NCBI GenBank assembly: GCA_022842285.1
Contig: JALHPV010000025.1
Location: 1-42,074 of the forward strand
Length of the DNA: 42,074 nucleotides
Source of the DNA: Kofleriaceae bacterium
GTDB taxonomy: Bacteria; Myxococcota_A; Polyangia; Haliangiales; Haliangiaceae
Direction of reading: 5' to 3'
Below, in pieces: positions 4,883-37,659 of the stretch. Positions within the stretch are counted from its first letter, which is position 1, and each line of letters opens with the position of its first letter. The position numbers were made by a program, and so were the translations under genes. The notes beneath the pieces were generated by a model. The model ran no database searches. It worked only from the letters and a program-made list of their open reading frames with translations, and was not told the origin of the DNA.

Positions 4883-4885
4883 CAC

Positions 4886-21803: not shown

Positions 21804-21827
21804 CTACCGCTTCCGCGGGCGCGGAAC
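21804..21827. repeat. 24-bp palindromic repeat, copy 2
   Basis: Identical to 18986-19009. Here its first three bases are the stop codon of the sigma-54 activator, and the rest encodes the protein's end VPRPRKR. Both copies therefore sit at gene 3' ends. Confidence 0.6.
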
Positions 21828-23543
21828 GGCGTACTTCTCGAGCTTGTTGACAAGCGTCCGGCGCGACACGCCGAGGAGCTTGGCGGCGTGGGTCTGGTTC
21901 CCGTGGCACTGGTCCAGCGCATCGAGGACCTTTTGCAGCTCGGGATCCGGTGGCTCATCGCTGACGATGACGGACGGCATCTGCGCCGTGACCCGCGGGG
22001 GCGTCGTCGACGAGCGGGTGCTCTGCATCCGGCCGAGTGGCAGGTCGGTCGCCTCGATCTCGTCGCTGTTCGCGAGGATCGCGGCGCGCTCCATCACGTT
22101 GCGAAGCTCGCGAATGTTGCCGGGCCACGGATACGCCTGCATCGCCGCGAGGGCGGTGGGCGCGAGCCGTAGCGATGGTCGCTCGAGCTTGAGCCCGGCC
22201 GCGGACAGGAACTGGATGGCCAGGGGCTCGATCTCGGCGATGCGCTCGCGGAGGGGAGGGATGAGGATCGACATCGCATTCAGGCGATACAGCAGGTCGA
22301 GGCGGTAGGTGCCCCGCTCGACCTCGGAATCGAGGTCACGGTTCGTCGCGGAGACGACGCGCACATCGATCGAGCGCGGGACGACGGAGCCGACGCGCAG
22401 GACCTTACGCTCGTCGAGGACGCGGAGGAGCTTGGCCTGCGTGGCGAGGGAGAGCTCGCCGACCTCGTCGAGAAACACCACGCCACCTTCGGCCACCTCG
22501 AAGAGTCCGGGCTTGCTCTGCAGGGCGCCCGTGAAGGCCCCGCGCTCGTGGCCGAAGAGCTCGCTCTCGAGGAGGGTCTCGGTGAGGGCGGCGCAGTTGA
22601 GGCGAAGGAAGGGCCGATCGGCCCGGGCGGAGAGGCGGTGGATCTGCTCGGCCACGACCTCCTTGCCGACGCCCGTCTCGCCGAGCAGGAGCACGCTGAT
22701 GTCGGCGGCCGCGACGCGCGCGACGAGCTGGTGCAGCGCCGACATCTTCTCGTCGGCGACCACGATCTCGGACGAGACGGACACGGGCTGGCCATGCGCG
22801 CGGGCTCGCGCCCGGGCCGCGAGAGTGGCCGCCTCACGACTGTCGCGCGGGTACCACGCCGAGCCGGTCTCGAGGTCGAAGCCGAGCATGCGCAGCTGCT
22901 GCTCGACACGTCGCACGACGGGGAGCCCGTGCTCGGCCGTCGTGTCGAGCAGCATGAGCTCGAGCTCGCCCCGACCATACGGGGCCACCACATCACCTTC
23001 GCGCAGGCACGCCGCGGCCGCATCGCAGCCCTCGCTGTCCGAGCCGCCACTGCGCAGCACGATGTGCACGATGCCAAAGCTCATCGCGTGGCGGGCCCCG
23101 CGCGCGCACTCGTCTTCGATCCGACTCTCGAAGTAGTCGTGGCTGCGCACCCGGCGGGTGCGACTCCGATGGTGCCGCCGCTGGACGACGATCGTCACGG
23201 CGCCGACGCGGACCGCTTCGTTCAGCTGCAGGGCGGCGGGCGTGTTGGGCGCCAGGCGCTGCTCGCGGACGACGGTTCCGTTCGCGCTGCCGAGGTCGAC
23301 GATCGAGAGCGGGTCGAGCACGATCTTCGCGTGCGTGCGCGAGATCGAGGCGTCGTCGATCCGGACGTCGCAGTCGCTCGCGCGTCCGATGATCGCCTCG
23401 CCCACGCCGGGGAGAACCTCGGTGGTGTGCACGTCATCGCCGATGACGAGCAGGACCAGCGGATCGCTCGCATTCGCCGAGGTCTCGCGGGTCGCGTGCG
23501 TGGCCTCGGGCGTCGCGGTATCGCCTCTACCGCGAGCGGCCAC
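21804..23543 (-). CDS. FHA-domain sigma-54-dependent activator
   Basis: 579 residues. FHA domain at ~45-110 (AIIGRASDCDVRIDDASISRTHAK, LGSANGTVV). A middle part (~130-225) ends LREGDVVAPYGRGELELMLL and resembles a degenerate GGDEF domain without a catalytic signature. The AAA+ domain (~235-465) has Walker A GETGVGKE, GAFTGA, Walker B VVFLDEVGE and the arginine-finger region, so it can open sigma-54 promoters. A Fis-type helix-turn-helix closes the protein (THAAKLLGVSRRTLVNKLEKY). FHA replaces the usual receiver, so activity should depend on phosphothreonine made by a kinase; the neighbouring kinases on both sides are prime candidates. GTG start at 23543 overlaps the upstream kinase gene by 17 bp. 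Confidence 0.92.
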   Translation of the reverse strand: MAARGRGDTATPEATHATRETSANASDPLVLLVIGDDVHTTEVLPGVGEAIIGRASDCDVRIDDASISRTHAKIVLDPLSIVDLGSANGTVVREQRLAPNTPAALQLNEAVRVGAVTIVVQRRHHRSRTRRVRSHDYFESRIEDECARGARHAMSFGIVHIVLRSGGSDSEGCDAAAACLREGDVVAPYGRGELELMLLDTTAEHGLPVVRRVEQQLRMLGFDLETGSAWYPRDSREAATLAARARARAHGQPVSVSSEIVVADEKMSALHQLVARVAAADISVLLLGETGVGKEVVAEQIHRLSARADRPFLRLNCAALTETLLESELFGHERGAFTGALQSKPGLFEVAEGGVVFLDEVGELSLATQAKLLRVLDERKVLRVGSVVPRSIDVRVVSATNRDLDSEVERGTYRLDLLYRLNAMSILIPPLRERIAEIEPLAIQFLSAAGLKLERPSLRLAPTALAAMQAYPWPGNIRELRNVMERAAILANSDEIEATDLPLGRMQSTRSSTTPPRVTAQMPSVIVSDEPPDPELQKVLDALDQCHGNQTHAAKLLGVSRRTLVNKLEKYAVPRPRKR

Positions 23544-24903
23544 GGCTCGATTTGATCACGGTGGCATCCTCGGAGATGTGGAGCGGAATCTCTTCTTCGA
23601 TCATCTCGGCGATGACCTCGTCGACGCGAATCGTATGATCGGCGCTGGCCAGCTCGCCGAAGAGGCCGAGGAGGGTGGCTTGCTGGAGTGACTCGGCCCC
23701 CCGGTCGATCGCGTCGCCGAGCGACTCCCCGGGGGCGGGCGCGAAGAGACTGATGGCGCCATCGAAACACTCTTCGCGCAGCGCCATCGCCGCGCGGGCC
23801 GCGGTCATCGCGCCGGCCTTCCCACTCTCGGGCGAGGCCATCACGACCGAGCCGTCCTCGAGCATGAAGCTCTCGAGGCCGAAGCGATCCGAGATGCGCT
23901 TGACCGAGCCGGCTGCGTCGGCGGGTTCCTCCGCGGGGGCCTCGGAGGCCTCATCGTACTGCGGCATCACCGAGAAGAAGATGTAGCTCGGTCCGTCCGG
24001 CGGCGGCTTCGTGCCGCTGGCGGCCCGCGGAGGAACCGCGACGGTGGGCCCTTCTTTCTGGCCCCCGCGCCGCCGCTTCCCGTCGATGATCGGGGGGAGG
24101 GCGCGCAGCCACGCCGCCGCCAGGTCGCCGGTCGGAGGACGATCTTGCGGGCGCTTGCTCAACATCGCGTGCACGAGGTCCACGAGCGCCGACGGTGCTT
24201 CGGGGCAGTGGGTATCCAGGCGCTCGGGCTGCGACATGAGCACCTTGGCGCGCACGGCCTCGGGCGTCCGTCCGGCGAACGCCTTGCGCCCGGTCAGGGC
24301 CTCGTAGAGCACGCAGCCAAGGGCCCAGACGTCGGCGTTCGCGTCGATGACGACCGAGCCTCGCGCCTGCTCGGGAGACATGTACGACGGCGTTCCGATC
24401 AGGACGCCAGTACGCGTGAGCACGCCCGCATCTGCGGCCAGTCGGGCGATGCCGAAGTCGACGAGCTTGATGCGGTCGACCTCGCCCCGATCGAGGATCA
24501 GATTTCCTGGCTTCACGTCGCGATGCACGATGCCGAGGCGGTGAGCGGCCCCGAGGGCATCGGCGATCCCAATCGCCATCTGGATGGCCTCCGTCGGAAC
24601 GAAGCCAATGGTGACGAGCTGCGTTCCCACCGTGATGCCGTCGACCCACTCCTGGACCAGGTAGTGGATTCCGTCGGAGACCCCATGGGTCACGTAGCGC
24701 ACGACGTTCGGATGGTGGAGCTGCGCGAGCATGGCCGCTTCGCGCTCGAACCGCGCGACGTCGGGGCGCCCGTCGAGGGAGAGGACCTTCACCGCCACCT
24801 GAGATCCCGTCGTCAGGTCGCGAGCGCGCCATACCGAACCCATGCCTCCTCGGGCCGCTTGCTGGGTCAGCTCGAAGCGCTCCCCGAGGACTGTGGGACG
24901 CAC
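23527..24903 (-). CDS. Soluble Ser/Thr protein kinase
   Basis: 458 residues if started at GTG 24903. Kinase domain ~8-270: ARGGMGSVWRA, Lys39 in VAVKV, HRDVKPGN (Asp129), DFG 149-151, GTPSYMSPEQ, all intact. No membrane helix is seen. The C-terminal ~170 residues are acidic and carry no domain I recognise (DRFGLESFMLEDGSVVM, RVDEVIAEMIEEEIPLH). I prefer GTG 24903 because TATACT ends exactly 6 nt before it and the protein then begins right at the kinase fold. ATG 24933, ten codons up, is the alternative but would sit 15 bp from the divergent gene. As first gene of the leftward operon, it probably phosphorylates the FHA activator that follows. Confidence 0.87.
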   Translation of the reverse strand: MRPTVLGERFELTQQAARGGMGSVWRARDLTTGSQVAVKVLSLDGRPDVARFEREAAMLAQLHHPNVVRYVTHGVSDGIHYLVQEWVDGITVGTQLVTIGFVPTEAIQMAIGIADALGAAHRLGIVHRDVKPGNLILDRGEVDRIKLVDFGIARLAADAGVLTRTGVLIGTPSYMSPEQARGSVVIDANADVWALGCVLYEALTGRKAFAGRTPEAVRAKVLMSQPERLDTHCPEAPSALVDLVHAMLSKRPQDRPPTGDLAAAWLRALPPIIDGKRRRGGQKEGPTVAVPPRAASGTKPPPDGPSYIFFSVMPQYDEASEAPAEEPADAAGSVKRISDRFGLESFMLEDGSVVMASPESGKAGAMTAARAAMALREECFDGAISLFAPAPGESLGDAIDRGAESLQQATLLGLFGELASADHTIRVDEVIAEMIEEEIPLHISEDATVIKSSRGRSR

Positions 24904-24909
24904 GCTTCG

Positions 24910-24933
24910 AGTATACGGGGTTTCTGCTACCAT
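24910..24933. promoter_or_regulatory. Divergent promoter elements between kinase and HlyD-fusion genes
   Basis: GTATAC (24911-24916) is self-complementary. Leftward it gives TATACT followed by 6 nt and GTG 24903. Rightward, TACCAT (24928-24933) precedes ATG 24949 by 15 nt. No convincing -35 is visible on either side. Confidence 0.4.
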
Positions 24934-24948
24934 CGCTCTCTCGGCCAG

Positions 24949-26835
24949 ATGGGTGATTGGGACGAGTCTACCCAGCTCCGCGCACTTCCGTTCGTCGGGA
25001 CCGATCGGATCCTGGTCGCGGAGGCGGACCCACACGTGCGCGCATGGCTCCGCGAGATGCTGGCCGGTCACTTCGGCGTCGAGGAGGTCGAGAGTGGCCG
25101 GGCTGCGCTCGAGCGCCTCACCGTGGAGCCGCCGCGGGTGCTGGTCGTCGGTGCGCAACTCGCCGACATGAGTGGAAGTGTCCTGCTTAGCCATGCGGCG
25201 CGCCATGGCCTGCTCTCGGCGCATACCGGCGGCCCGGTCGCGTTCACCGTCGCGAACATGCTCGGGCAGGCCCCCGAGATCGACGAGAACCTCGTCCCCG
25301 TCTTCTACCGCCTCTCGTATTCGCTCCTGCCCGAGCAGGTGCGCGAGCTCCTCACCCAGGCCATCGCGCGGTTGCCGCCGGTGGTGCAGAAGCGTCCCAC
25401 CGAGGAGGACGCGAAGCTCACGCGGCAGGTCATCGAGCACGCGAAGCGCCTCGGCACGCAGCCCGATCTCAAGAGCGCCACCCGCGTCGCCATCGCCGCC
25501 GTGATCGAGCTCGCGTCGGCGGATCGCGCGCGCTGCCTGTTCTACGACGAGGAAGGGGGCACCCTCTGGTCCGAGACGGATGGCGAGGACCTGACGCATG
25601 CGTCGGCGGGACTGGCGGGTTTCGCCGTGCGTGCGCGCTCGGGCGTCGTGCTGCCCGATGTCTCCGCCGACCGGATCTATATCCGCGAGATCGATGATCC
25701 GCAGGGGACGGGCGGCGAGCGCATGGTCGTGCAGCCGGTGGCCGACCGCGACGGCCGTGTCCACGCCGTCCTGATCGCGGTCCGGCGCGCGAAGTCGCCG
25801 CAGTTCTCGGAAGCCGACCTGCGCAAGCTCGAGGCGCTGGCCGAAGCGTGGGCTCCCTTCATCCATCAGCTCGCCCAGCAGCAAGAGGCCGCGCACATCC
25901 TCGAGCAGCGCGAGGGCAAGAACGAGGTGTTTCGCCAGGAGGCGATCGACCATCTGGTCCGGCGCGGTCAGCGTGGCGACGTGGTGCGCGTGCATCCGGG
26001 CTGGGTCCACGCGGCGTACTGGCTGCTGATCCTGTTCGTCGTGGGGGCCGGTGCCTACGTCGCGTTTGCGCGGGTGTCGCAATGGTCGGAGGGGCCGGCC
26101 GTGATCCGCGTGATGGGGCGAACCGACATCCGCGCCGTCGAGCCGGGGACCGTCACCGCACTCGAGGTCGCGCCGGGAGAGTCCGTCACCGAGGGGCAGA
26201 TCCTCGCGCGTCTCCACGACTCGGAACAAGCGGGCCGGCTGCGGGCCCTCAACACGGAATTCGAACGGCGCCTCGTGGCCTACCTCCAGACACCGGCCGA
26301 ACCGTCCGTGCGACAGGCGCTCTCCTCCTTGGTTACCGAGCGCGAGAGCGCGCAAGCGAGCGTGGAAGCGCGTGCGTTCCGCGCGCCGCATGCGGGCATC
26401 GTCAAAGAAGTCCACGTCGCGAATGGACAGCTCGTCGAGGCCGGCAAGACCATCATCTCGCTCGTCGAGACCGGGGCGACCGAGGGCATGTCGGTCCTCG
26501 CGTTCTTGCCCGGCCAGGACCGCCCCCGGATTCGCGTCGGCCAGCGGCTGCGCTTCACGCTCCCCGGGTACCGCGGTGCGCACATCGAGCTCGACGTCCG
26601 CGCGGTCTCGGCCGAGGTGATCGGCGCGGCCGACGCGCGCGAGCGTTACCTCGGTGATCGCTTTCGCGAGGCGCTGCCCATTCAAGGCTCGGTGGTCGTC
26701 ATCGAGGGATCTCTCGTCACGACCACGTTTCGCGCCGACGACGAGACCTACGAGTTGCACGACGGCATGACGGGGTTCGCCGAGGTCCGCCTCCAGTCGC
26801 GCACCATCCTCGAAACCCTGTTGCCGGGGGGCTGA
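24949..26835 (+). CDS. Pseudo-receiver-GAF-HlyD fusion adaptor for peptide export
   Basis: 628 residues with an unusual order. Residues ~18-140 look like a response-regulator receiver (DRILVAEADPHVRAWLREML), but the strand that should end in the phospho-acceptor Asp reads VLVVGAQLADMSG, with Gly68 in its place. The conserved Lys is also not seen, so it should not be phosphorylated normally. Residues ~175-310 form a GAF domain (RCLFYDEEGGTLWSE, SGVVLPDVSAD, VQPVADRDGRVHAVLIAV). One membrane helix follows (~355-375). The periplasmic part is HlyD-type with two lipoyl half-motifs (VEPGTVTALEVAPGESVTEG and RAPHAGIVKEVHVANGQLVE). The stop overlaps the ABC exporter start (TGATG). I infer an exporter adaptor that reads a cytosolic ligand or partner. 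Confidence 0.85.
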   Translation: MGDWDESTQLRALPFVGTDRILVAEADPHVRAWLREMLAGHFGVEEVESGRAALERLTVEPPRVLVVGAQLADMSGSVLLSHAARHGLLSAHTGGPVAFTVANMLGQAPEIDENLVPVFYRLSYSLLPEQVRELLTQAIARLPPVVQKRPTEEDAKLTRQVIEHAKRLGTQPDLKSATRVAIAAVIELASADRARCLFYDEEGGTLWSETDGEDLTHASAGLAGFAVRARSGVVLPDVSADRIYIREIDDPQGTGGERMVVQPVADRDGRVHAVLIAVRRAKSPQFSEADLRKLEALAEAWAPFIHQLAQQQEAAHILEQREGKNEVFRQEAIDHLVRRGQRGDVVRVHPGWVHAAYWLLILFVVGAGAYVAFARVSQWSEGPAVIRVMGRTDIRAVEPGTVTALEVAPGESVTEGQILARLHDSEQAGRLRALNTEFERRLVAYLQTPAEPSVRQALSSLVTERESAQASVEARAFRAPHAGIVKEVHVANGQLVEAGKTIISLVETGATEGMSVLAFLPGQDRPRIRVGQRLRFTLPGYRGAHIELDVRAVSAEVIGAADARERYLGDRFREALPIQGSVVVIEGSLVTTTFRADDETYELHDGMTGFAEVRLQSRTILETLLPGG

Positions 26836-29096
26836 TGAGTATTCCCCGCGACAACGATCCCACCGACGCTCCCACCACCAGTCCGGACGCCGCGGCCGAG
26901 CTGTTCCCCTCGCTCGAGCGCCTCGCGGCCGAGCGGAAGGGCACCATCCCCTACGTCCAGCAGCTCGAATGGACCGACTGCGGTCCGGCGAGCCTCGCGA
27001 TGGTGCTGAAGTACCTGGGACGCGACGTCACTCTCGACGAAGTACGGGAGGTCGTGGGGAGTGGACGCGAGGGTTCGGATGCGCTGGCCCTCATGAAGGG
27101 AGCCGAGTGGTACGGGCTCACCGCGCGCGGCATCTCGCTCGACATCGAGCACTTTCGCTTCCTGCCGACGGGCTCGATCCTTCACTGGGAGTTCGACCAC
27201 TACGTCGTCTTCGAGAAGAACCTGAAGGACGGCATTCAGATCGTGGATCCGGGCCGGGGTCGGCGCGTGATCCCCCTGAAGCAGCTGCGCACGGCATTCA
27301 CCGGCGTGGCCCTGGTCTTCGAGCGGACCGACAAGTTCGTCGAGCGCAAGGCGGGCTCGGGGCGGTGGTCCTGGTACATCTCGCAGATCGCGGGCCAGCG
27401 CTCGCTCGTGACGCGCGTGATGGTGATGTCGCTGCTGCTGCGCGTGTTCGCACTCGCGGTTCCGCTGCTCACGGCCGTCATCGTCGACCGCGTGATCCCG
27501 CGCGGCGACTACACCCTGATGCTCGTCGTCGTGGCTGGTCTCGTCGGCACGATGGCCTTCCAGATCTTGACGTCCTTGGTCCGCACGCACCTCCTCCTGC
27601 AGATGCGAACGAACCTCGATACCCGGCTCACGCTCGGCTTCGTGGACTACCTCACCCGTCTCCCGTTCGACTTCTTTCAGCGTCGGTCGACCGGCGACCT
27701 GATGCAGCGTGTGAACAACAACTCGACGATCCGCGAGGTGCTCACGACCAGCGTGCTCTCGACGCTGCTCGATGGGCTGTTCGTCACCCTGTACGCGGTG
27801 CTGATCTTCGTGATCTCGCCGCTGCTCGGCGCGATCGTCCTGGGACTCGGAGCGGTCCAGCTCATCGTGCTCGCCATCGCGCGGCGCAAGTATCGCGATC
27901 AGCTCGTCCGGTCGCTCGATGCGCAGGCGCGCTCGCAGTCGTACCTGATCGAGATGTTTGCCGGCATGTCGACGTTGAAGGCGTGTGCGGCCGAGAGTCG
28001 CGCCGTCGAGCGCTGGAGCAACCTGTACGTCGACGAGCTCAACGTCTCCCTGGAGCGCGGGCGGACGGCGGCGCGTGTCGACGCGATGATGACCGTCCTC
28101 ACGAGTGGGTCGCCGCTCCTGATCTTCGTGATCGGGGCCGTCCAGGTCGTGGACAACTCGATGTCGCTCGGCACGATGCTGGCGGTGAACTCCGTGGCCA
28201 TCGGGCTCCTGACCCCGCTGGCCGCTCTGGTGAACAGCGGGCTCCAGCTCCAGCTCCTCGGCGGCTACATGGATCGCGTCGAGGACGTACTGAACACGAA
28301 GCCGGAGCAGTCGGGGCAGGACGCGGCGCGCGTCCCCCAGCTCACGGGTCGCGTCACCCTCCAGGACGTCTCCTTCCGGTACAGCGAGCGGGCTCCCCTC
28401 GTCGTGCGCGGGGTCTCGGTCGATATCCGCGCCGGCTCCTCGGTGGCCATCGTGGGGCGGTCGGGATGCGGCAAGTCCACGCTCGCGGCGATGATCGCGG
28501 GCCTGTATCGCCCGGTCGAGGGTCGCATCCTCTTCGACGGCAATGACCTCATGCGCCTCGACCTGCGGTCCCTCCGGCGTCAGCTCGGCATCGTGTTCCA
28601 GCAGCCGTATCTGTTCGCGGGCTCGATCCGCAGCAACATCGCGCTGACCGATCCGTCGATCCCGCTCGACCGCGTGATGAATGCGGCGAAGGCGGCGGCG
28701 ATTCACGAGGACATCGAGGCGATGGCGATGGGCTACGACACCCTGATCGCCGACGGTGGCTCGTCGCTGTCTGGTGGCCAGCGCCAGCGCATCGCCCTCG
28801 CCCGCGCGCTCGTGCATCGACCGTCCCTCTTGATCCTGGACGAAGCCACGAGTGCGCTCGACTCCGAAACGGAGCGTCAGGTCATGTACAGCCTCGCGCA
28901 GATCCGCTGCACGCGAATCATCCTCGCCCACCGGCTCAGCACCATCGCGAGCGCGGACCAGATCCTCGTCATGGATCACGGCGAGGTCGTGGAGGCGGGC
29001 ACGCACGACGAGCTGATCGCAAAGGGGCAGCTCTACAGCCGGCTGGTCCAGGCCCAGATGCGGCACGCCGCCCCGCCGCCCCGGGGGCCGACGTGA
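26835..29096 (+). CDS. C39-peptidase ABC exporter for a RiPP peptide
   Basis: 753 residues, full length for a peptidase-containing exporter (NHLP/LanT-like). The N-terminal C39 protease (~35-165) has Cys49 in WTDCGPASLAMVLKYLG, His122 in HWEFDHYVVF and Asp138 in QIVDPGRG, a complete catalytic set that cuts leaders after a double-glycine-type site. The six-helix membrane domain covers ~185-475. The ATPase (~505-740) has Walker A GRSGCGKST, signature LSGGQRQR, Walker B LLILDEATSALD and the H-loop AHRLST. It should cut and export the peptide encoded at 30077, whose leader ends VSGA. It is coupled to adaptors on both sides by overlapping codons (TGATG and GTGA). Confidence 0.94.
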   Translation: MSIPRDNDPTDAPTTSPDAAAELFPSLERLAAERKGTIPYVQQLEWTDCGPASLAMVLKYLGRDVTLDEVREVVGSGREGSDALALMKGAEWYGLTARGISLDIEHFRFLPTGSILHWEFDHYVVFEKNLKDGIQIVDPGRGRRVIPLKQLRTAFTGVALVFERTDKFVERKAGSGRWSWYISQIAGQRSLVTRVMVMSLLLRVFALAVPLLTAVIVDRVIPRGDYTLMLVVVAGLVGTMAFQILTSLVRTHLLLQMRTNLDTRLTLGFVDYLTRLPFDFFQRRSTGDLMQRVNNNSTIREVLTTSVLSTLLDGLFVTLYAVLIFVISPLLGAIVLGLGAVQLIVLAIARRKYRDQLVRSLDAQARSQSYLIEMFAGMSTLKACAAESRAVERWSNLYVDELNVSLERGRTAARVDAMMTVLTSGSPLLIFVIGAVQVVDNSMSLGTMLAVNSVAIGLLTPLAALVNSGLQLQLLGGYMDRVEDVLNTKPEQSGQDAARVPQLTGRVTLQDVSFRYSERAPLVVRGVSVDIRAGSSVAIVGRSGCGKSTLAAMIAGLYRPVEGRILFDGNDLMRLDLRSLRRQLGIVFQQPYLFAGSIRSNIALTDPSIPLDRVMNAAKAAAIHEDIEAMAMGYDTLIADGGSSLSGGQRQRIALARALVHRPSLLILDEATSALDSETERQVMYSLAQIRCTRIILAHRLSTIASADQILVMDHGEVVEAGTHDELIAKGQLYSRLVQAQMRHAAPPPRGPT

Positions 29097-29923
29097 GGCG
29101 CGGTATCTGGCTGGTCGTGCTCGCCGCGTGCGGGCGCGGCGATGGGGGCGAGCCGGTGGGCAGTGGCTCCGCGGCCGAACCGACGCCGATCACCCGCATC
29201 GAGCGGCGCGCGGAGACGGCGGAGGCCTCCGGCTGGGTCGGCGTGCTCACGCCGCGCGAGACCATCGAGGTCACAGCGCCGTTCACGAGCAAGGTCGAGA
29301 AGCTCTACGTGCAGCTGGGCGAGGACGTCGCCGTCGATGCACCGCTGGTGCTGCTCGATGCGCGACCGCTCAAGGACGAGCTGGCGACGGCGAAGGCGGC
29401 CTACAAGGAAGCGTCCGTCGCGAGCGCGGCGGCCGCGTCGCGCTACGCCCGCGAGAAACGGGCGCTCAAGGAGAAGGTCGCATCGAAGGCGGATGTCGAT
29501 GCGGCCGCGTTCGAGGCCAGCCAGGCGGCGGCCGCGGTGGGGCAGCACAAGACGAAGATCAGCCAGATCGAGGCGCGCCTGAAGGACACGCGACTCACGT
29601 CGACGATCACCGGGCGCGTGGCCCTGCGCTACGTCGAGGAAGGCGCCCGCGTGACCGAGGGCCAGCCCGTCGTCCGCGTGATCTCGTCGGGCCGGATGTT
29701 CATTCGCTTCGCGATCCCCGGTGCGGAGGCCAAGGCCGTCGCTCCCGGCGCCGCGGTCGAGGTTCGCTTCGACGGGCTGAACCTCCAGGGCGTCGTGAAG
29801 ACGGTCGCGCCCGAGCTCGATGCGGTTTCCCAGATGGTGCTCGCCGAGGCGGAGCTGACCGGGGATGCGAAGGGACTCTCGCCCGGTCAGGTCTGCCGGA
29901 TCGTCGCCGCGTCCCCGAAGTAG
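29093..29923 (+). CDS. Membrane-fusion-protein (HlyD/RND adaptor) lipoprotein
   Basis: 276 residues; the GTG start overlaps the exporter stop. The signal has lipobox LAAC. The lipoyl halves (TAPFTSKVEKLYVQLGEDVAVD and the TITGRVALRYVEEGARVTEG strand) flank a coiled-coil hairpin rich in Ala/Lys/Glu (~95-165). A beta-barrel follows (FIRFAIPGAEAKAVAPGAAV), and the protein ends at VCRIVAAS. It is short and lipid-anchored, closer to RND/MacA-type adaptors than to HlyD. Together with the HlyD fusion upstream it gives the exporter two different adaptors. No outer-membrane channel is encoded in the window, so that part is probably borrowed. Confidence 0.87.
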   Translation: MRRGIWLVVLAACGRGDGGEPVGSGSAAEPTPITRIERRAETAEASGWVGVLTPRETIEVTAPFTSKVEKLYVQLGEDVAVDAPLVLLDARPLKDELATAKAAYKEASVASAAAASRYAREKRALKEKVASKADVDAAAFEASQAAAAVGQHKTKISQIEARLKDTRLTSTITGRVALRYVEEGARVTEGQPVVRVISSGRMFIRFAIPGAEAKAVAPGAAVEVRFDGLNLQGVVKTVAPELDAVSQMVLAEAELTGDAKGLSPGQVCRIVAASPK

Positions 29924-29945
29924 CCGCATGTAGGCGCGACGCGCA

Positions 29946-29987
29946 CTTCACAGTTTGTGAAGGCCCATCTGCACAATTGGTAAAGGC
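29946..29987 (+). promoter_or_regulatory. Candidate operator/enhancer upstream of the precursor gene
   Basis: A perfect inverted repeat, CTTCACA-GTT-TGTGAAG, lies at 29946-29962. Its right half recurs as a direct repeat 23 bp downstream: 29949-29964 and 29972-29987 agree at 13 of 16 bases. It sits about 115-130 bp before the precursor ATG, in the 153-bp gap after the adaptor gene. It could bind an activator at a distance typical of sigma-54 enhancers. A terminator hairpin is less likely because no T-run follows. Confidence 0.5.
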
Positions 29988-30048
29988 GCGACCGGAACCC
30001 TGTCGCAGGACCTGACTGATCACGAGGAGATCCGGAGGCCGCGGATCC

Positions 30049-30062
30049 GGCACGCCGCGTGC
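30049..30062 (+). promoter_or_regulatory. Possible sigma-54 (-24/-12) promoter before the precursor gene
   Basis: GGCACG-CCGC-GTGC matches the -24/-12 consensus GGCACG-N4-TTGC at all but one base, with GG and GC correctly spaced. Transcription would begin near 30074, only 3-4 nt before ATG 30077, giving a nearly leaderless message. That is odd for this promoter class and lowers confidence. Confidence 0.35.
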
Positions 30063-30076
30063 TCTAGAGAAAGCCC

Positions 30077-30388
30077 ATGAAGCGGACCGGCGTACAAAAG
30101 CTCGAGCTCAAGAAGCTGACCGTGAAGCAGCTCTCCGAGGTTTCAGGCGCTGGACACAAGATCGGAACCCGATGGTGCTCGGGAACCTGCATCTGCGCCA
30201 CGACCGGTACTTGCGTCGACGTCAAGGACGAGGCTGGGTACAACGAGTGCGACTACCAGGCCCTCGGCATCGCCGGTTGTGATGGGAGTTGTGTACAGCC
30301 GCAGGGCGGCGGCGGCGGCGGTTGTGGCGGTGGTGGCGGTGGCGGTTGTGGCGGTGGTGGTGAACGCCAACTCGTTTGCCTGGTCTGA
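30077..30388 (+). CDS. RiPP precursor peptide: lanthipeptide-like core plus Gly-Cys tail
   Basis: 103 residues. Residues 1-25 form a leader (KLELKKLTVKQLSEVSGA) resembling class I lanthipeptide and double-glycine leaders. The likely C39 cut is after GA at residue 25. Residues 31-46 (TRWCSGTCICATTGTC) are packed with Ser/Thr and Cys, ideal for LanB/LanC thioether rings. A middle part has Cys58, 68 and 72 but just one Ser. Residues 77-95 are six Gly, Cys83, seven Gly, Cys91, four Gly; the end is ERQLVCLV. In all there are ten Cys against seven Ser/Thr after residue 25, so three or more cysteines cannot be lanthionine partners and may be MNIO substrates. The tail recalls microcin B17. It is the only small Cys-rich frame in the cluster. 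Confidence 0.85.
   Translation: MKRTGVQKLELKKLTVKQLSEVSGAGHKIGTRWCSGTCICATTGTCVDVKDEAGYNECDYQALGIAGCDGSCVQPQGGGGGGCGGGGGGGCGGGGERQLVCLV
30305..30361 (+). repeat. GGN simple-sequence tract encoding the Gly-Cys tail
   Basis: A run of ggc/ggt codons interrupted twice by tgt encodes G6-C-G7-C-G4. Such trinucleotide tracts gain or lose codons by slippage, so tail length may vary between strains without breaking the frame. Confidence 0.8.
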
Positions 30389-30393
30389 CCGCA

Positions 30394-31398
30394 CTACGCA
30401 CGAGTCAGGAGTCCGACATCCAGTAGCGCGTCCGCGATCTCGACGGTTGTCATCGCATCAACCTCGGTCGCGAGCACGGCCAGGATCTCGCGCAGCGGCG
30501 CGAGCGTCTTGAACGCCTCCACCACGCGCGCCAGGCGGGCGTCGCTGCCCGCCATGACCGCCTCGCCATCGGCGGTGCAGATCTGAATGGCGCCGTCGAC
30601 CTCGCGGCTCGCGACGCCCGCGAGGAGCTGGTACTGCGCCTCGAGGTCGCGACCAACGGTGACGACGGGGGGCGAGCGGACGTCGATCGGGGGTAGCTCC
30701 ACATCGGCGAGCGAGCCCGCCAGGATGCCGGCTCGCGAGAACCGCTCGATCGTATCGGCCACGGCAGCGAGGCTGGCGGGGATGTTCTCCAGCACGACCT
30801 CGCCGGCCGCGAGCTGAGCGAACAACGCCCGCTGCGCATCGTCGAGGGGGGTGACGATCGCGACCTCGGCCGGCGTGGTCCAGATCACGGCACAGCCGGG
30901 GCGGGCGGCAGGCGGGGAGGTGCGGTCGCGGCCGACGAACCAGCGCGCGATATCGGCGGTGAGCTCGAGCACCCGAACGCCGTCGCCCACGCGCAGGGGG
31001 CCGTCGCGGGTCGGGACCCCGATGGGAGGCTGGTTGAAGAGTGCCCATTCGAGTGTGGCCACCTCGGCGAGCCACGGCCGATCACGTGTGACGTCGTGAG
31101 TCAGCAGATACGCGGCGAAGCCGTCGCCGGCCGGCGCCCAGTCGTACGCGCCCCACGGCGTCGTGCGGTAGTAGGCGGCGGCGAGGGCCGGCCAGGCCTC
31201 GCCCACCACCTGGGCGCACGCCGGAAACGCGAGGCGCAGCTCGCGTGCCCGTCCAGGCTCGAGCGTGTCGTACAGGGCGAGGCGCCGGCCATGGACACCG
31301 GTTGCCGCCTCGCCGTAAACGGCCTCGGCCGTCTCCTCCGGGGTCGCCGTACCGACGAACATCGGCCGCATGTGGGCGAAGAGGTCGTGCAGTTTCAC
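30394..31398 (-). CDS. BufC-like MNIO partner protein (DUF2063 N-terminus)
   Basis: 334 residues; GTG start. The N-terminal ~120 residues show the BufC/HvfC DUF2063 pattern: RRLALYDTLEPGRARELRLAF, FPACAQVVGEAWPALAAAYY, DGFAAYLL and AEVATLEWALFNQP. These proteins bind the precursor leader and present it to a neighbouring DUF692 oxygenase. The remaining ~200 residues probably comprise further helical or winged-helix-like units (TPLDDAQRALFAQLAAGEVV, FSRAGIL), with an unassigned end. It is divergent from the MNIO gene, 37 bp apart, and runs tail-to-tail toward the precursor with a 5-bp gap. The usual order is same-strand, directly downstream of the MNIO gene. Confidence 0.8.
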   Translation of the reverse strand: MKLHDLFAHMRPMFVGTATPEETAEAVYGEAATGVHGRRLALYDTLEPGRARELRLAFPACAQVVGEAWPALAAAYYRTTPWGAYDWAPAGDGFAAYLLTHDVTRDRPWLAEVATLEWALFNQPPIGVPTRDGPLRVGDGVRVLELTADIARWFVGRDRTSPPAARPGCAVIWTTPAEVAIVTPLDDAQRALFAQLAAGEVVLENIPASLAAVADTIERFSRAGILAGSLADVELPPIDVRSPPVVTVGRDLEAQYQLLAGVASREVDGAIQICTADGEAVMAGSDARLARVVEAFKTLAPLREILAVLATEVDAMTTVEIADALLDVGLLTRA

Positions 31399-31435
31399 GG
31401 TGGCGGGCTCCGATGGAGTGGGGTCAAATCACGAG

Positions 31436-32293
31436 ATGAGGCCGCTCGCAGGCGTAGGGCTCGGGCTTCGCCACGATCACGTGAAGTCGCTCCTCGCGAG
31501 CGAACGGCCTGTCGACTTCATCGAGATCATACCCGAGAACTGGTTGCGTCCTCGGGACCGCGCGGCGCTCGCTCCCTGCATCGAGCGCTGGCCCACGTCG
31601 CCACACAGCGTGCATCTCTCGATCGGCGGCCCGGACCCGATCGATCACGAGTTTCTCGCCGCGATGCGGGCCGCGGTGGCCGCCTGCGACGCCCCGTTCT
31701 TCTCCGACCACCTCTGCTATTCGTCGATCGGTGGCATCCAGACGCGCGAGCTCCTCCCGCTGCCGTTCTCCGACGAGGCGATCGAGCACACCGTCGCGCG
31801 CATCCACGCGGTGAAGCGCGAGCTCGACGTGCCGCTTGTCCTCGAGAACGCCACCTACTATGCGGTCATGCCGGGCTCGACGATGGACGAGGCCCGCTTC
31901 GTCACGACCGTCCTGGCCGAAGGTGACTGCGGCTTCTTGCTCGACGTGAACAACGTCTTCGTCAATGCGCGCAATCACGGCTACGACGCGCGGGCCTTCA
32001 TCGATCAGATGCCCCTCGAGCGGGTCGTGCAGCTCCACGTGGCCGGGCACCACATTGATCAGGACCTCGACACCCTCGTCGATACCCACACCGCCGTGGC
32101 GCGCTCGGAGGTGTGGGAGCTCTTCGAGTACACGCTGCGCCGCGCGGGGCGGATGATCCCGACCATCATCGAGTGGGACGACCCGACCCCGCCGCTCGAG
32201 ACGCTACTCGACGAGGTGGAGCGGGCACGTACTCACGCCGCCCACGCGCTGGCTCAGGGACAGCCGGCCGCGTCGTTCGGCACCACGGCCTGA
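31436..32293 (+). CDS. MNIO-family iron-dependent peptide oxygenase (DUF692)
   Basis: 285 residues, the usual size. The TIM-barrel family landmarks run in order: GVGLGLRHDH, EIIPENW, HLSIGG (His60), SDHLCY (His92), LVLENATYY (Glu138), FLLDVNNVFVNARNHG (Asp170, His181), LHVAGHH (His201-206), DTH (Asp216, His218) and IIEWDD (Glu246). The multi-iron ligands expected of MbnB/BufB-like enzymes all appear to be there. Family members oxidise Cys (to oxazolone-thioamide, thiooxazole and related groups) or other residues of precursor peptides, with a BufC-like partner. Here the partner is the divergent gene. ATG 31436 is chosen; TCAAAT ends 6 nt before it. The 3' end overlaps the opposite kinase gene by 40 bp. 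Confidence 0.93.
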   Translation: MRPLAGVGLGLRHDHVKSLLASERPVDFIEIIPENWLRPRDRAALAPCIERWPTSPHSVHLSIGGPDPIDHEFLAAMRAAVAACDAPFFSDHLCYSSIGGIQTRELLPLPFSDEAIEHTVARIHAVKRELDVPLVLENATYYAVMPGSTMDEARFVTTVLAEGDCGFLLDVNNVFVNARNHGYDARAFIDQMPLERVVQLHVAGHHIDQDLDTLVDTHTAVARSEVWELFEYTLRRAGRMIPTIIEWDDPTPPLETLLDEVERARTHAAHALAQGQPAASFGTTA

Positions 32294-35200
32294 CCCTCGA
32301 GCCGGTACGGGAGGCGGCAGCGCACGAGCTCGGCGAGGTCGCGGGGCGTGATGTTCGAACGGTCCGCACGCCGGACGTCGAGCATCGTGTCGTCGGTGGT
32401 GACGAGGTAGCGGCTGGTCGGATCGAACGCGGCCGCGACGGTGCCGGGCGGAGCGGCGATCCGATCGAGGGGGCGCCAGGTGCGGGCGTCCCAGACGATC
32501 ACGATATCGTCCGCCCCGACCGTCGCCGCGAGCTCGCCGTCGGCACTGATGGTGGTCGAGAGGACGTACGAGCTGTGCGCCGCGATCCGGGCCCGCCGCG
32601 TGTAGCCGGCACCCTCCGCCGCGAAGCGCTCGAGCGAGCCATCGGTCTCGCCGACGATCAGCTCGGTTCCCGAGGGATGCCAGGCGACGTCCGAGGCGTT
32701 CGATCCGAGCGGCAGCCGTGCGAGCTCGCGGCCGTGCACGTCGCGAACGTGAAGCTCGGCCCCGTGGCCGATCGCGACGCGTGATCCGTCCGGGGCGAGG
32801 ACCGCGCGGGACACATCGGGCAGGGTGGCGCGCAGCGCGAGGTCGGGGCCGAGGAGCCAGGCCTGGCTGGGCGCGTCGTCAGAGACCGACACGGCGACGA
32901 TCACCGCGTTCGACCTCGCCCACTCGAGCGACGTCGCCACCCCCGGGAGGGTCACCCGCGCGAGCTCGGTGCCATCGTCGCGATAGGTCACGAGCGAGCG
33001 ATCACGGCCCGCCGCGAGGAGGGTTCCGTCCGGCGCGAAGGCCAGCGCGCTGATGCCCGCGGTCGCGCCGGTCCACGTCGCGCGGAGCTGCCCCGACGCC
33101 GCCACCACGCTGATGGTCCCGGCGGCGTCACCGACCGCGACCCGCTCGCCGGTGGCCGTGACGGCGCGGCACGTGGCGACCGTCGCCGTCGCCACCCGCG
33201 TGACGGCGTGCGTGCCCAGGGACCAGAGCTCGAGGCCACTGTCCGAATGACGGACAGCAAGCTCCCCCGGCGCGAGGAGCGGCGCGGGCACGTACGGGGT
33301 TCCCGTCGGTGCACCCGGCAGCGTGTGGACGGTCTGGCGCCCGAGGTCCCAGACCTTTGCCGTGCCGTCCCAGCTCCCCGACACCATGCGTCGCCCCGTG
33401 AGGTCGACATCGACCGCGAAGAGGTAGCCACTATGCGCGAGCTCGGCGAGGAGTTGCCCGCGCGCCGGATCCCAGACCCGCGCGGAGCCGTCCGCCGATA
33501 CCGTCGCGAGGCGGTCGTTCGCCAGGTACCGCACGCGATTCACCTGAGCGGTGTGTCCCCGCAGCACCTGGACCGCGGTGCCCGTCTCCGGATCCCAGAT
33601 CCGCACGGTGCCGTCGACGCTCGCGGTGGCGACGCGGGTTCCATCGAGGTTCCACACGGCATCGCGGATCGACTTGTCATGACCGCGCAGCACCGCGCCG
33701 GGGCGTCCAGTCTCGGCATCCCAGATCCGCGCGGTCCCATCGACGCTGCCGGTCACGACGCGCCTGCCCGTGGGATCGAAGGCCACGGCGACCACCCCTG
33801 CCTCGTGCCCGACGAGGGTGCGCGCGCGGGGCGGCGTCGTCAGGGACCACACGGTCGCACTGCCGCCACCCGTGGCGTCCTCGACGATCCCGACGGCGAC
33901 CGCCCGGGCGTCGGGGGCGAACGCCGCGACCGTGGACGAACCGGGAGTCTCGGCTCCGAGATCGACGCCCACCCCGGACGCGAGGTTCCACACGCGCACC
34001 TGGCCCGCGGTCGTCGCGACGAGGACATGCCGGCCGTCGCGCGTCACTCCGAGCTGGTTCACCGGCTGCGAGTTGCCCGCGAGCTCGCGGCGCGGGGTGC
34101 CCGTGGCCGCATCGAGCAACTTCACCGTCCCGTCGGGTCCGGCGACGGCCAGCTGCGTATCATCGAGCCACGCCACGAACGTCATGCCCTCTGGCACGGC
34201 GACGGTGCGGGTGGCTTCGCCCGTCGTCGCGTTCCAGACGCGCACGCTGCCGTCGTCGGCGGCGGTGGCGGCGCGCGTGGCGTCGGGCGAAAGCGAGACG
34301 GCGAACACCTGCCCGGTGTGGCCGCGCAGGCGGGCCAGCTCGGGCGCGAGAGGCTCGAGGGCGCGTCCGATCAGGTAGCGCACGGCCACCGTATCGCCGC
34401 CGCCCTGCAGCGCTTGATCGAGATAGAGCAGGGCCTCGGTCGTCCGATCCTCGACGAGTGCGCGGCGGCCTTGCTCGATCTGGCTCTCGAGCAAGCTGCG
34501 GCGGACCTCGCTCTCGCTCGCGATCGCGCGCGCCGAGCTGGCCTCGGCGACGACCCGGTTCGCATCGGCCTCGCTGCGGAGTCGCGCGAAGATCACGAGC
34601 GCGACCACGAGGCCGAGCAGGACGGCCCCGAGCAGGCCCCGCCGCCAGCGTCGACCGCGCGCCGCGTCGGCCACACTCGCCGCGCCGAACGCTTCCTCGA
34701 CGGATGTGAGCGAGCCGGGATAGCGCGCGCGCCAGAGCCGGTACTCGGTGAGCGCTTCGCCACGCCACAGGAGACCGCGCGTCTCGCCCTTGTCGTGCCA
34801 CTGCCGGGCCGCCACGCGAATCTGATCGCGCAGACGCGCGCCCTCGGCATCCTCTTGCCGCCAGCGCACGAGGCGGGGCCACGCCGACAGCAGCGCTTCG
34901 TGCACCACCTCGATGCTCTCGCCCCCGGGCGTCTCCATCGCCACGAGCAGGCGGCCGGTGATGAGCTGCTCGAGCGCCGTCTCGGCGCGCACACCACCGG
35001 AGACTTGCAGCAGCTCGGCCCGGCTCAGCACGGCGCGGGTGCCCTCGGCGGTCACGAGGTGCCGGAACATCTCGCGCACCATCGCCTGGTCCTCGGACGG
35101 CATCGCGGCGAGCGTGCTCTCGGCGTGCTGGGCGAGCGCGCCGCCGACGCCCCCGAGGGCGCGGTAGGCCTTGCGGGTGAGCTGGCGAAACTGCCGATCG

Positions 35201-37635
35201 CGGTACTGCCAGAGCTGGTACGCCGTGAACGACACGAGCGCGAGCGCGGCTGGCTGGGCGGCGACCTCGGCGACCATCTCCTCGGCGAGCTTGCCGTCCT
35301 CGAACTCGTAGCCCGCGCGGCGCGCCGGCTCGACGAGGATGCGCAGCAGGTCGGCCGCCACCGGCGTCGTCAGGAGCTGGAGGCTCGTGGCGAGGCGCTC
35401 GCGAAACACCACGAGCTGCGCGGCGCGCACGAGGAAGTCGTCGCGGAGCGTCACCACGACGCGTACGGCATCGTCGTCGGTGCGCGCGGCGCGCACGAGC
35501 GCATCGGCGTAGACCTCTTGCTCGGTCGGATCGAGGCAGAGCGTGAAGAGCTCCTCGAACTGGTCGATGACGACGAGCAGGCTGGCGCCCTGCGCGCGCG
35601 CGTGGGCTCGCAGGGCGGCGCCGAGGGCATCGCGATCGGCGCGCAACCGGTCCGGGGTGAGCGTGATCCCGAGGTCCGCGTCGATGCGTGCGCAGAGCGT
35701 CGTCAGGGGCGTCGCGCCGGGGCGGGCCACGAGAGAGCGCCACGTATCGCCGAGCGCCGGCAGGACACCGGCGCGTACGAACGAGCTCTTGCCCGCGCCC
35801 GACGGACCGACCACCGCGACGAGCGGCATCGCGCGCAGGCGGTTCACGAAGCCCTCGACCTCGCGCTCGCGACCGAAGAACAGCGAGGCGTCGGCCTCGG
35901 TGAAGGTCATGAGCCCGCGATACGGGGCCGCCTCGTCACCATCCTTGCGGGCTGCGGTGTCTCCGTCGGCCCGCAAGCCCAGGCGCGGCCATGCATCGAG
36001 ATCGCCTCGCGTGAGCCGACCGGGCAGGGCGAGGAGCCGCGCGCCGCCCTGGCGTCGCGGGCCGTCGAGCCAGAACACCTCGGGGGGAGCACCCGGGGCC
36101 GGGGCCCCGACCTGCGCGACGGGGGCGAGATCCGCGACGAGCGCGCCCTGCGCGTCGACGACGATCACGCGGGCCGCCTCCGTGCGCTCGACGCTCGCTC
36201 GCACCGCGATCGGGGCTCGCACGGGTCGTCGCACGCCGCTCCAGTGCTCGCTGCGATCGGGATCGATCACGACCAGTGGATAGCTGGCGAGGAACTGCAG
36301 CGACCGCAGCATCGCGCCCGCGGCCGGGATCGCCGCCACGAGGTACGCGTGGAGCTCGTCGGCGCTCGCGGTCGGGCCGGGATCGGCGACGGCGAGGAGC
36401 ACCTCCATGGCGGTACGCAGGGACGCGCCGCGCTCGAAGAACAGCGCGATCAGCTCGGGCATCGGATGCGCATCACCGATCGTCGCGAACGGACGACCGA
36501 GCTCGCGCGCGAGCTTCCACCAGCCCGCGGCATCGAGGCCCTCGGCGCGGACCTGCTCGAGCAGCGCGACGGTGGCCGGCGCGGTGGGCGGGCCGGCCGC
36601 GCGCAGCGCACACGCGAGTCCGACGAGCGCGACGTACTGCGCGCACGTCTTGGTCGCCTGCAGCAGGGCCTCGCGCGCCTGTGCTGGCGCCCGCGCGACA
36701 TCGAGGGCCGCGACCGCCTCCGCGATCGGCTGCGGCGCTCGCATCACGAGCTCGTCGCGCGTGAGCTCGTCGAGCTGCGGCAAGTTCACCGAGTCGAGCG
36801 ACACCCCCGACGCCTGCATGAGCGCCTCGCCGAACGCCAGCGCCGTCGGAAAGCGCTGGGCCGGCTGCTTGGCGAGCGCCTTCGCGATGGCCTCGTCGAG
36901 GCCCGCCGGGAATGCCGCCCCGAGGGAGGGGGGCTTCGCGCGCGCGTGCTTGGCCGCGATCTCGAGCGGACTCTTGCCGAGGAATGGCGGTGCACCCGTC
37001 AGGAGCTCGTAGGCGACCGCTCCCAGGGCGTAGACGTCGGCGGGCGGGCCGATCGGGATCCGTCCCCCGAGCCAGAGCTCCGGGGCCATGTACAGCGGCG
37101 TGCCCGTCGGCTTGGCCACGCCCGCCACCGTCGTCGCCGGCGCGCGCAGATCGGCGGCGATGCCGAGGTCGAGCAACTTCGGGAACACGCTGCCCGCACG
37201 CGAGACGACCATGACGTTCGCCGGCTTGAGATCGCGGTGCACGATGCCCTGCTCGTGGGCGGTGTGGACCACCTCGCAGAGCCGGCGCAGGAAGGGGATG
37301 GCGCGCTCCAGCGGCAGCGGCCCTTGCTCGGCGAGGAGCACGTCGAGCGGCGTACCCCGCACGAGCTCCATCGCGATCCACAGCAGGTCATCGGCCTCGG
37401 CGCCGAAGGCATACACGTGGGCGGCGAACGGATGATCGATGCGCGATGCGAGCCGGGCCTCGGCGAGGAACCGCTGGGTGGCTTGCGCGTCCCCCGCGGC
37501 CTCCGCGCGTGCGACCTTCACGACGGCCTCGCGCTCGAGCGTGGGCTGCTCGGCGCGAAACACGAGGCCGAACCCACCCTCGCCCAGATGCTCGCGGAGC
37601 ACGAACTCGCCCAGGCGTCGGCCGACCAGCTCCAA
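32254..37635 (-). CDS. Giant Ser/Thr kinase-STAND NTPase-WD40 protein
   Basis: About 1793 residues. Kinase domain ~8-265: LGEGGFGLVFRAEQ, Lys40 (AVVKV), HRDLKPAN (Asp135), DLG at 156-158 instead of DFG, TPLYMAPELW. A long helical middle follows, then an nSTAND1-type NTPase (PYRGLMTFTEADASLFFGRE; P-loop VVGPSGAGKSSF near residue 610; VVIDQFEELF Walker B). One membrane helix lies near 1000-1020, and at least a dozen WD40 blades fill ~1090-1770 (repeats like GSVDGTARIWDAETG). TTG 37635 gives a start right at MELVGRRLGEF; GTG 37674 is the alternative and would overlap lanC. STAND-WD40 proteins assemble on sensing a trigger. It sits inside the RiPP cluster in opposite orientation, so it may regulate the pathway or act as a self-protection sensor; this is inference. 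Confidence 0.88.
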   Translation of the reverse strand: MELVGRRLGEFVLREHLGEGGFGLVFRAEQPTLEREAVVKVARAEAAGDAQATQRFLAEARLASRIDHPFAAHVYAFGAEADDLLWIAMELVRGTPLDVLLAEQGPLPLERAIPFLRRLCEVVHTAHEQGIVHRDLKPANVMVVSRAGSVFPKLLDLGIAADLRAPATTVAGVAKPTGTPLYMAPELWLGGRIPIGPPADVYALGAVAYELLTGAPPFLGKSPLEIAAKHARAKPPSLGAAFPAGLDEAIAKALAKQPAQRFPTALAFGEALMQASGVSLDSVNLPQLDELTRDELVMRAPQPIAEAVAALDVARAPAQAREALLQATKTCAQYVALVGLACALRAAGPPTAPATVALLEQVRAEGLDAAGWWKLARELGRPFATIGDAHPMPELIALFFERGASLRTAMEVLLAVADPGPTASADELHAYLVAAIPAAGAMLRSLQFLASYPLVVIDPDRSEHWSGVRRPVRAPIAVRASVERTEAARVIVVDAQGALVADLAPVAQVGAPAPGAPPEVFWLDGPRRQGGARLLALPGRLTRGDLDAWPRLGLRADGDTAARKDGDEAAPYRGLMTFTEADASLFFGREREVEGFVNRLRAMPLVAVVGPSGAGKSSFVRAGVLPALGDTWRSLVARPGATPLTTLCARIDADLGITLTPDRLRADRDALGAALRAHARAQGASLLVVIDQFEELFTLCLDPTEQEVYADALVRAARTDDDAVRVVVTLRDDFLVRAAQLVVFRERLATSLQLLTTPVAADLLRILVEPARRAGYEFEDGKLAEEMVAEVAAQPAALALVSFTAYQLWQYRDRQFRQLTRKAYRALGGVGGALAQHAESTLAAMPSEDQAMVREMFRHLVTAEGTRAVLSRAELLQVSGGVRAETALEQLITGRLLVAMETPGGESIEVVHEALLSAWPRLVRWRQEDAEGARLRDQIRVAARQWHDKGETRGLLWRGEALTEYRLWRARYPGSLTSVEEAFGAASVADAARGRRWRRGLLGAVLLGLVVALVIFARLRSEADANRVVAEASSARAIASESEVRRSLLESQIEQGRRALVEDRTTEALLYLDQALQGGGDTVAVRYLIGRALEPLAPELARLRGHTGQVFAVSLSPDATRAATAADDGSVRVWNATTGEATRTVAVPEGMTFVAWLDDTQLAVAGPDGTVKLLDAATGTPRRELAGNSQPVNQLGVTRDGRHVLVATTAGQVRVWNLASGVGVDLGAETPGSSTVAAFAPDARAVAVGIVEDATGGGSATVWSLTTPPRARTLVGHEAGVVAVAFDPTGRRVVTGSVDGTARIWDAETGRPGAVLRGHDKSIRDAVWNLDGTRVATASVDGTVRIWDPETGTAVQVLRGHTAQVNRVRYLANDRLATVSADGSARVWDPARGQLLAELAHSGYLFAVDVDLTGRRMVSGSWDGTAKVWDLGRQTVHTLPGAPTGTPYVPAPLLAPGELAVRHSDSGLELWSLGTHAVTRVATATVATCRAVTATGERVAVGDAAGTISVVAASGQLRATWTGATAGISALAFAPDGTLLAAGRDRSLVTYRDDGTELARVTLPGVATSLEWARSNAVIVAVSVSDDAPSQAWLLGPDLALRATLPDVSRAVLAPDGSRVAIGHGAELHVRDVHGRELARLPLGSNASDVAWHPSGTELIVGETDGSLERFAAEGAGYTRRARIAAHSSYVLSTTISADGELAATVGADDIVIVWDARTWRPLDRIAAPPGTVAAAFDPTSRYLVTTDDTMLDVRRADRSNITPRDLAELVRCRLPYRLEGQAVVPNDAAGCP

Positions 37636-37643
37636 CGGTAGCG

Positions 37644-37653
37644 ATGGTATCGT
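37644..37653. promoter_or_regulatory. Overlapping divergent -10 elements between kinase-WD40 and lanC genes
   Basis: Rightward, TATCGT (37648-37653) ends exactly 6 nt before lanC GTG 37660. Leftward, TACCAT (37649-37644) ends 8 nt before TTG 37635. The two hexamers overlap in a near-symmetric GGTATC/GATACC core, the arrangement of a bidirectional promoter. No -35 is obvious. Confidence 0.4.
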
Positions 37654-37659
37654 GAGTTC

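Follow-up and report, generated by a model that had tools for sequence, protein, structure and literature searches.

We think it probable that the sequence at 30048–30063 of the window (the whole 42,074-nt stretch of DNA that was analysed) works as the sigma-54 promoter of a peptide precursor gene, fired by an enhancer-binding protein on tandem operators and giving a near-leaderless message. In the proposed mechanism, an enhancer-binding protein would sit on the operators at 29946–29985, and the activator, most likely the FHA protein encoded at 21804–23543 and probably switched by the Ser/Thr kinase of the overlapping gene, would fire the promoter. RNA would start near 30074, which would place the 5′ end of the mRNA about 3 nt before the AUG, and the precursor message would be translated as a near-leaderless mRNA. 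The features concerned are as follows.

21804–23543, minus strand: FHA-type sigma-54 activator (FHA, AAA+ with GAFTGA, Fis-type HTH), from domain and motif matches
23527–24900, minus strand: Ser/Thr kinase (STK2), kinase domain with HRD and DFG motifs; the gene overlaps the activator gene
24931–26835, plus strand: GAF plus HlyD adaptor, transcribed divergently from STK2 and conserved in the clusters of relatives
26835–29096, plus strand: C39 peptidase ABC exporter, domain match
29093–29923, plus strand: HlyD/RND-type adaptor, domain match
29946–29962, unstranded: putative upstream operator 1, inverted repeat CTTCACA-GTT-TGTGAAG, centred at about −119
29970–29985, unstranded: putative upstream operator 2, TGCACAATTGGTAAAG, centred at about −96 and aligned with TGCACGATCTGTAAAG in the relative G002
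30048–30063, plus strand: putative sigma-54 (−24/−12) promoter, CGGCACGCCGCGTGCT, the top-scoring site in the window, aligned with a full match in G002
30077–30388, plus strand: gene of the precursor peptide (103 aa), with leader KLELKKLTVKQLSEVSGA followed by a Cys- and Gly-rich core
30394–31398, minus strand: putative DUF2063/HvfC-like partner, a weak match below cut-offs (HvfC 22 bits against a cut-off of 142)
31439–32293, plus strand: MNIO (DUF692) RiPP-modifying enzyme, PF05114 at 299 bits, over the cut-off

A putative −24/−12 element and tandem operators before the precursor gene

The gap between the end of the HlyD-type gene (29923) and the precursor ATG (30077) is 153 bp long and contains tandem 16-bp sites at 29947–29962 and 29970–29985 as well as CGGCACGCCGCGTGCT at 30048–30063. 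A reading made from the sequence alone had described GGCACG-N4-GTGC with correct −24/−12 spacing at 30049–30062, and both the sequence and its placement were confirmed: GGCACG-CCGC-GTGC has its GG at −25/−24 (30049–30050) and its GC at −13/−12 (30061–30062). The 10-nt spacing from GG to GC, in near-consensus surroundings, is that of a −24/−12 element. With C(−12) at 30062, the predicted +1 is at 30074, 3 nt 5′ of the ATG, and an in-frame TAG at 30065–30067 excludes an earlier start codon.

Taken singly, each of the window features is modest. Sequences matching GGCAC-N5-TTGC with at most one mismatch were found 10 times in the window against 10.6 expected, which is chance level. With an unfitted weight matrix that follows the published sigma-54 consensus, the promoter site scored 12.0 (maximum near 19) and ranked first in the window; the one other position scoring 10 or more was at 6973 on the minus strand. 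When the gap was dinucleotide-shuffled 2000 times, 14 of the shuffles reached the score of the promoter site. RpoN, on which the promoter would depend, is encoded in the window's own genome (G000:C59, match over the cut-off).

The perfect inverted repeat CTTCACA-GTT-TGTGAAG reported in the sequence-only reading was found again at 29946–29962; by itself it is mildly unusual, 45 of 1000 gap shuffles containing an inverted repeat of equal arm length. The same reading had placed a second half-site 23 bp further on. The distance was correct but the type was not, as TGCACAATTGGTAAAG is a full, imperfect 16-bp copy, and an equally good 16-mer direct repeat arose in 7 of 1000 shuffles. Allowing up to three mismatches, the 16-bp operator pattern had three matches in the window, all in the gap, against 0.25 expected, a count that includes the palindrome read on the opposite strand and that uses a pattern written from these two copies.

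In a quite improbable alternative, the precursor is co-transcribed with the HlyD and C39 exporter genes from promoters further upstream and has a normal leader, the −24/−12 likeness and the inverted repeat being coincidental or belonging to another regulator. The genes do lie on the same strand across the 153-bp gap, in which no terminator was found, and purine-rich AGAGAAAG just 5′ of the ATG could serve as a weak ribosome site; the chance-level frequency of one-mismatch motifs and the shuffles that reproduce the inverted repeat point the same way. This alternative is opposed by the aligned, stronger site in G002, by the enrichment of sites before other precursors and by the genome-wide spacing peak, all of which are described below and favour a sigma-54 promoter. 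The sigma-54 reading is also favoured by a search of the gap that found neither a sigma-70-like promoter nor a terminator.

Conservation and enrichment of sites before double-glycine peptide genes

In the corresponding gap of G002, whose precursor is 62% identical to that of the window, CGGCACTCCGTTTGCT is a full match to GGCAC-N5-TTGC lying 16 nt before the ATG, with an implied leader of 4 nt and a score of 13.5. It aligns with the window site although the surrounding DNA has diverged, and it scores higher. Loss of the −24/−12 bases in related clusters had been named in advance as evidence against the promoter; in G002, the sole close relative found, these bases are kept, so that site conservation among relatives rests on the single pair of window and G002.

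Precursor searches covered 56, 35 and 317 genomes (overlapping sets that include the window's own genome) and GTDB contigs, and G002 was the one clear relative that they gave. Among the 35 genomes of the order, strong matches came only from the window's genome and G002, together with two weak matches, and the 317 genomes of the class gave no further strong match. The weaker matches were rejected as relatives; examples are L024, L025 and L038, the last from a Geobacteraceae MAG and with 17 residues matched. No precursor was visible in G011 in the 385 bp between the HlyD match and the contig end, or in G015 just 3′ of the HlyD gene.

The surroundings of relatives of the activator and of the C39 exporter were then fetched, and double-glycine peptide ORFs were defined in them blind to promoters. 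In the window's family (33 loci, 495,024 bp, part of them fetched for their activator and some of their precursors homologous to each other), a site scoring 10 or more with a leader of 0–40 nt preceded 10 of the 22 double-glycine ORFs, compared with 11 of 2512 control ORFs, several start codons being allowed for candidates and one for controls. The corresponding figures for other families (41 loci, 727,202 bp) were 2 of 46 and 21 of 4224 (p 0.025). When the window and G002 were removed, 8 of 20 family ORFs retained a site (Fisher p about 2e-13 against controls and 7e-4 against other families). Among the ten positive ORFs, the implied leaders were 3 nt in the window, 4 nt in G002, 4 nt in G012 and 3 nt in G004, and 14–32 nt in the other six. 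Some of the 12 family ORFs lacking a site are second genes of tandems or chance-like ORFs; those in L118, L126 and L128 resemble real precursors.

The earlier proposal that the precursor is under sigma-54 control is supported by the bases kept in G002 and by the similar sites enriched before family double-glycine ORFs, and 30048–30063 is likely to be the sigma-54 promoter of the precursor.

Within the same family we also noted Met-rich (MMMMMM) double-glycine peptides in L116 (18282–18614), L127 (1668–1991), L119 (5914–6183) and L125 (2044–2328), with −24/−12 sites that imply leaders of 21–32 nt.

Spacing of −24/−12 sites from start codons across genomes

Genomes were scanned for GGCAC-N5-TTGC followed by ATG after 5–35 nt, which gives 31 possible lengths, with the reversed pattern as control. 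The window's genome gave 36 matches (34 sites) against 10 for the reversed pattern, and G002 gave 34 (30 sites) against 7. Implied leaders of 2–5 nt accounted for 28 of the 36 matches in the window's genome (binomial p about 1e-18) and 18 of the 34 in G002 (3e-8); 24 of the 36 fell at 2–3 nt. The only genomes that the first scan took from the order were eight of the family and G030; in these there were 215 matches at leaders of 1–4 nt against 27 at 12–15 nt, the reversed controls giving 8 and 9. These figures are limited to those genomes, and a wider scan took in 38, of which 29 had been chosen partly by earlier counts. Some other families of the class showed the short-leader excess too; several non-family genomes (G044, G052, G202, G107 and G399) did not. 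It is not universal in the phylum.

The sequence-only reading had counted the predicted leader of 3–4 nt against its own proposal. Such a leader is the usual spacing of strict −24/−12 sites in the window's genome and its relatives; given the genome-wide peak, the precursor gene follows the habit of its lineage, and its short implied leader is no anomaly.

The surroundings were read for 19 distinct sites with leaders of 2–5 nt. At 18 of them the ORF opened has 56 codons or more, and at the remaining one (L185) it has 18; the L176 site, with a leader of 1 nt, opens an ORF of 4 codons. A Pfam scan of ten short-leader and similar genes identified a pilin-like gene from the window's genome (leader 3 nt) and a FliL gene (leader 2 nt). 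Elsewhere, sigma-54 is well known to drive pilin and flagellar genes. In family loci, a Shine-Dalgarno-like motif preceded 2 of 16 ATGs with leaders of 0–7 nt, compared with 8 of 12 with leaders of 16 nt or more; in other loci, the proportions were 1 of 7 short-leader ATGs and 4 of 10 at 16 nt or more. Start codons at leaders of 0–3 nt were ATG in 10 cases, GTG in three and TTG in none.

Judged from promoter spacing, the AUG would lie within a few nucleotides of the mRNA 5′ end. We consider it unlikely that the sigma-54 promoter is real but translation is not near-leaderless, with either the start site shifted or translation beginning further downstream. The start at 30074 is a predicted one, and the start codons used in the genome scan are unproven, with the frame open far upstream in some loci. 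Such a shift is nevertheless hard to reconcile with the conservation of the precursor ATG and following codons along with the peptide leader, with a 2–3-nt peak that spans many unrelated genes, with ORFs of at least 56 codons at 18 of the 19 sites read, or with the preference for ATG over GTG and TTG.

We lean, by a little, towards the broader view that much of the lineage's sigma-54 regulon is near-leaderless. The −24/−12 element would lie at a fixed distance from the AUG and transcription would start 2–5 nt before it, bypassing the Shine-Dalgarno sequence, in genes for pilin-like, flagellar, lipoprotein and secreted-peptide products; FHA activators in peptide-export clusters would switch their own peptide in this way. 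On this view, the bacterial promoter class under the strictest control would be coupled, genome-wide, to Shine-Dalgarno-independent translation. Should mapped 5′ ends bear it out, −24/−12 elements could be used in this class to call both start codons and sigma-54 targets from sequence.

PMC12340547 describes leaderless genes of Deinococcus-Thermus in which a −10 box adjoins the ORF. The two layouts share a promoter element at a short fixed distance from the start codon and, as predicted for the window, the lack of a leader; the Deinococcus-Thermus genes use RpoD and a −10 box, whereas the window has a −24/−12 element that would need an activator. Searches of an open-licence library gave no report joining −24/−12 elements to near-leaderless starts, which does not prove that there is none.

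Two further observations concern sites with short leaders. A near-perfect −24/−12 site (score 18.1) lies at 19630 on the plus strand of L102, 2 nt before the ATG of a second C39 exporter ORF in G028. In G490, a member of the phylum with a 4.8-Mb genome, 44 short-leader matches were found, and the ten listed are nearly identical, which looks like a repeat family.

The FHA activator and the peptide export cluster

The FHA/sigma-54 activator had been placed at 21804–23543 between kinase genes, and a kinase gene does lie on each side. Walker A, GAFTGA and HTH are intact in the protein, as in enhancer-binding proteins, and its FHA domain is over the cut-off and has the phosphothreonine-binding signature residues GR, SRTH and NGT. 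The frame of STK2 is open further upstream, making its start codon uncertain; the extent given was taken from locus comparisons. Sigma-54 activators with an FHA domain and a neighbouring Ser/Thr kinase are a known arrangement. The window's activator has the same FHA, AAA+ with GAFTGA, HTH and adjacent kinase gene, and differs in lying within a peptide modification and export cluster.

In G011 the activator and kinase genes adjoin those for GAF-HlyD, the C39 exporter and HlyD, and in G028 and G004 they lie near them. In G002 the pair is on a separate short contig, and in G015 an activator lies on the exporter contig with no kinase match. G012 has an activator–kinase pair, with the activator gene and a precursor 7 bp apart. 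The GAF-bearing HlyD-type adaptor (24931–26835) is kept beside the C39 exporter in many relatives. Among family loci fetched by the exporter alone, 11 of 19 also had an activator, compared with 6 of 41 loci of other families, and a strict FHA pattern was present in 11 of the 16 family loci holding both activator and exporter, however fetched.

Part of this linkage is background, because the window's genome has no fewer than 39 of these activators (E up to 1e-60; 39 scored of 162 candidates). With activators frequent enough to fall near clusters by chance, there is a minor but appreciable probability that another enhancer-binding protein of that genome drives a real sigma-54 promoter here, the cluster FHA activator serving some other target. 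The half-sites also bear on this. TTGTG[AC]A half-sites occur upstream of the window precursor, the G002 precursor and one G028 precursor, and are absent from 7 of the 10 promoters tested, the motif having been derived from the window and G002, two of its three positives. They are thus not common to all linked promoters; the excess of activators in family exporter loci, the activator gene 7 bp from the precursor in G012 and the G028 precursor with half-sites directly behind its activator gene argue instead for the cluster FHA protein. Of the earlier claim that this protein drives the precursor, the recurring linkage and shared half-sites stand in favour, and the many activators and the seven promoters lacking half-sites against. 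On balance the cluster FHA protein is the better candidate for the precursor's activator, and 29946–29985 is its candidate binding site. Kinase input to the protein is only plausible.

A broader 16-bp operator pattern with up to two mismatches matched 59 times in the window's genome and 58 times in G002; the reversed pattern matched 19 and 24 times, respectively, so the operator was rejected as the marker of a clear regulon. Contig C241 of the window's genome carries two of the matches, which lie in lipoprotein-like genes or overlap their −12 region; these genes have their own −24/−12 sites.

Sigma-54 control of natural products is already known. In Myxococcus xanthus, sigma-54 and Nla28 control natural product genes through −24/−12 promoters (PMC7910581); an enhancer-binding protein and −24/−12 promoters over biosynthetic genes in a myxobacterium would be common to both systems. 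Most of the promoters described there are intragenic, and the clusters make polyketides and non-ribosomal peptides; unlike these, the window site is intergenic, 3 nt from a RiPP precursor start by its predicted leader, and the putative activator bears an FHA domain. The present reading offers a testable hypothesis of regulation for many cryptic peptide clusters of little-studied genomes.

The cluster was also compared with bufferin-type MNIO clusters, which PMC12452194 ties to sigma-70-type sigma and anti-sigma genes. It resembles those described there in having, near a Cys-rich precursor, an MNIO enzyme (PF05114) and a weakly matching DUF2063/HvfC-like partner, and differs in its double-glycine-type leader, C39 exporter, nearby LanB/LanC and precursor without a family model. 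At the model level, the BufB maturase match reached 264.6 bits against a cut-off of 310, HvfC was under its cut-off and the precursor had no match, as was also the case for the precursor against Pfam and NCBIfam. An Rfam search of the window and a plasmid search with 26835–30400 gave no match.

The exported peptide is probably MNIO-modified. LanC (37660–38883) and LanB (38880–41960) join the MNIO enzyme and the weak HvfC-like partner in the cluster (30394–41960), which may be cut at the contig end (42074), and MNIO and LanB/LanC chemistries could both act on the precursor. Elsewhere in the window, a HipA-like protein is encoded at 3626–4885 on the minus strand. A large protein with kinase, STAND NTPase and WD40 domains (32254–37680, minus strand) is divergent from LanC, and a kinase similar to it adjoins activators in G004 and G006.
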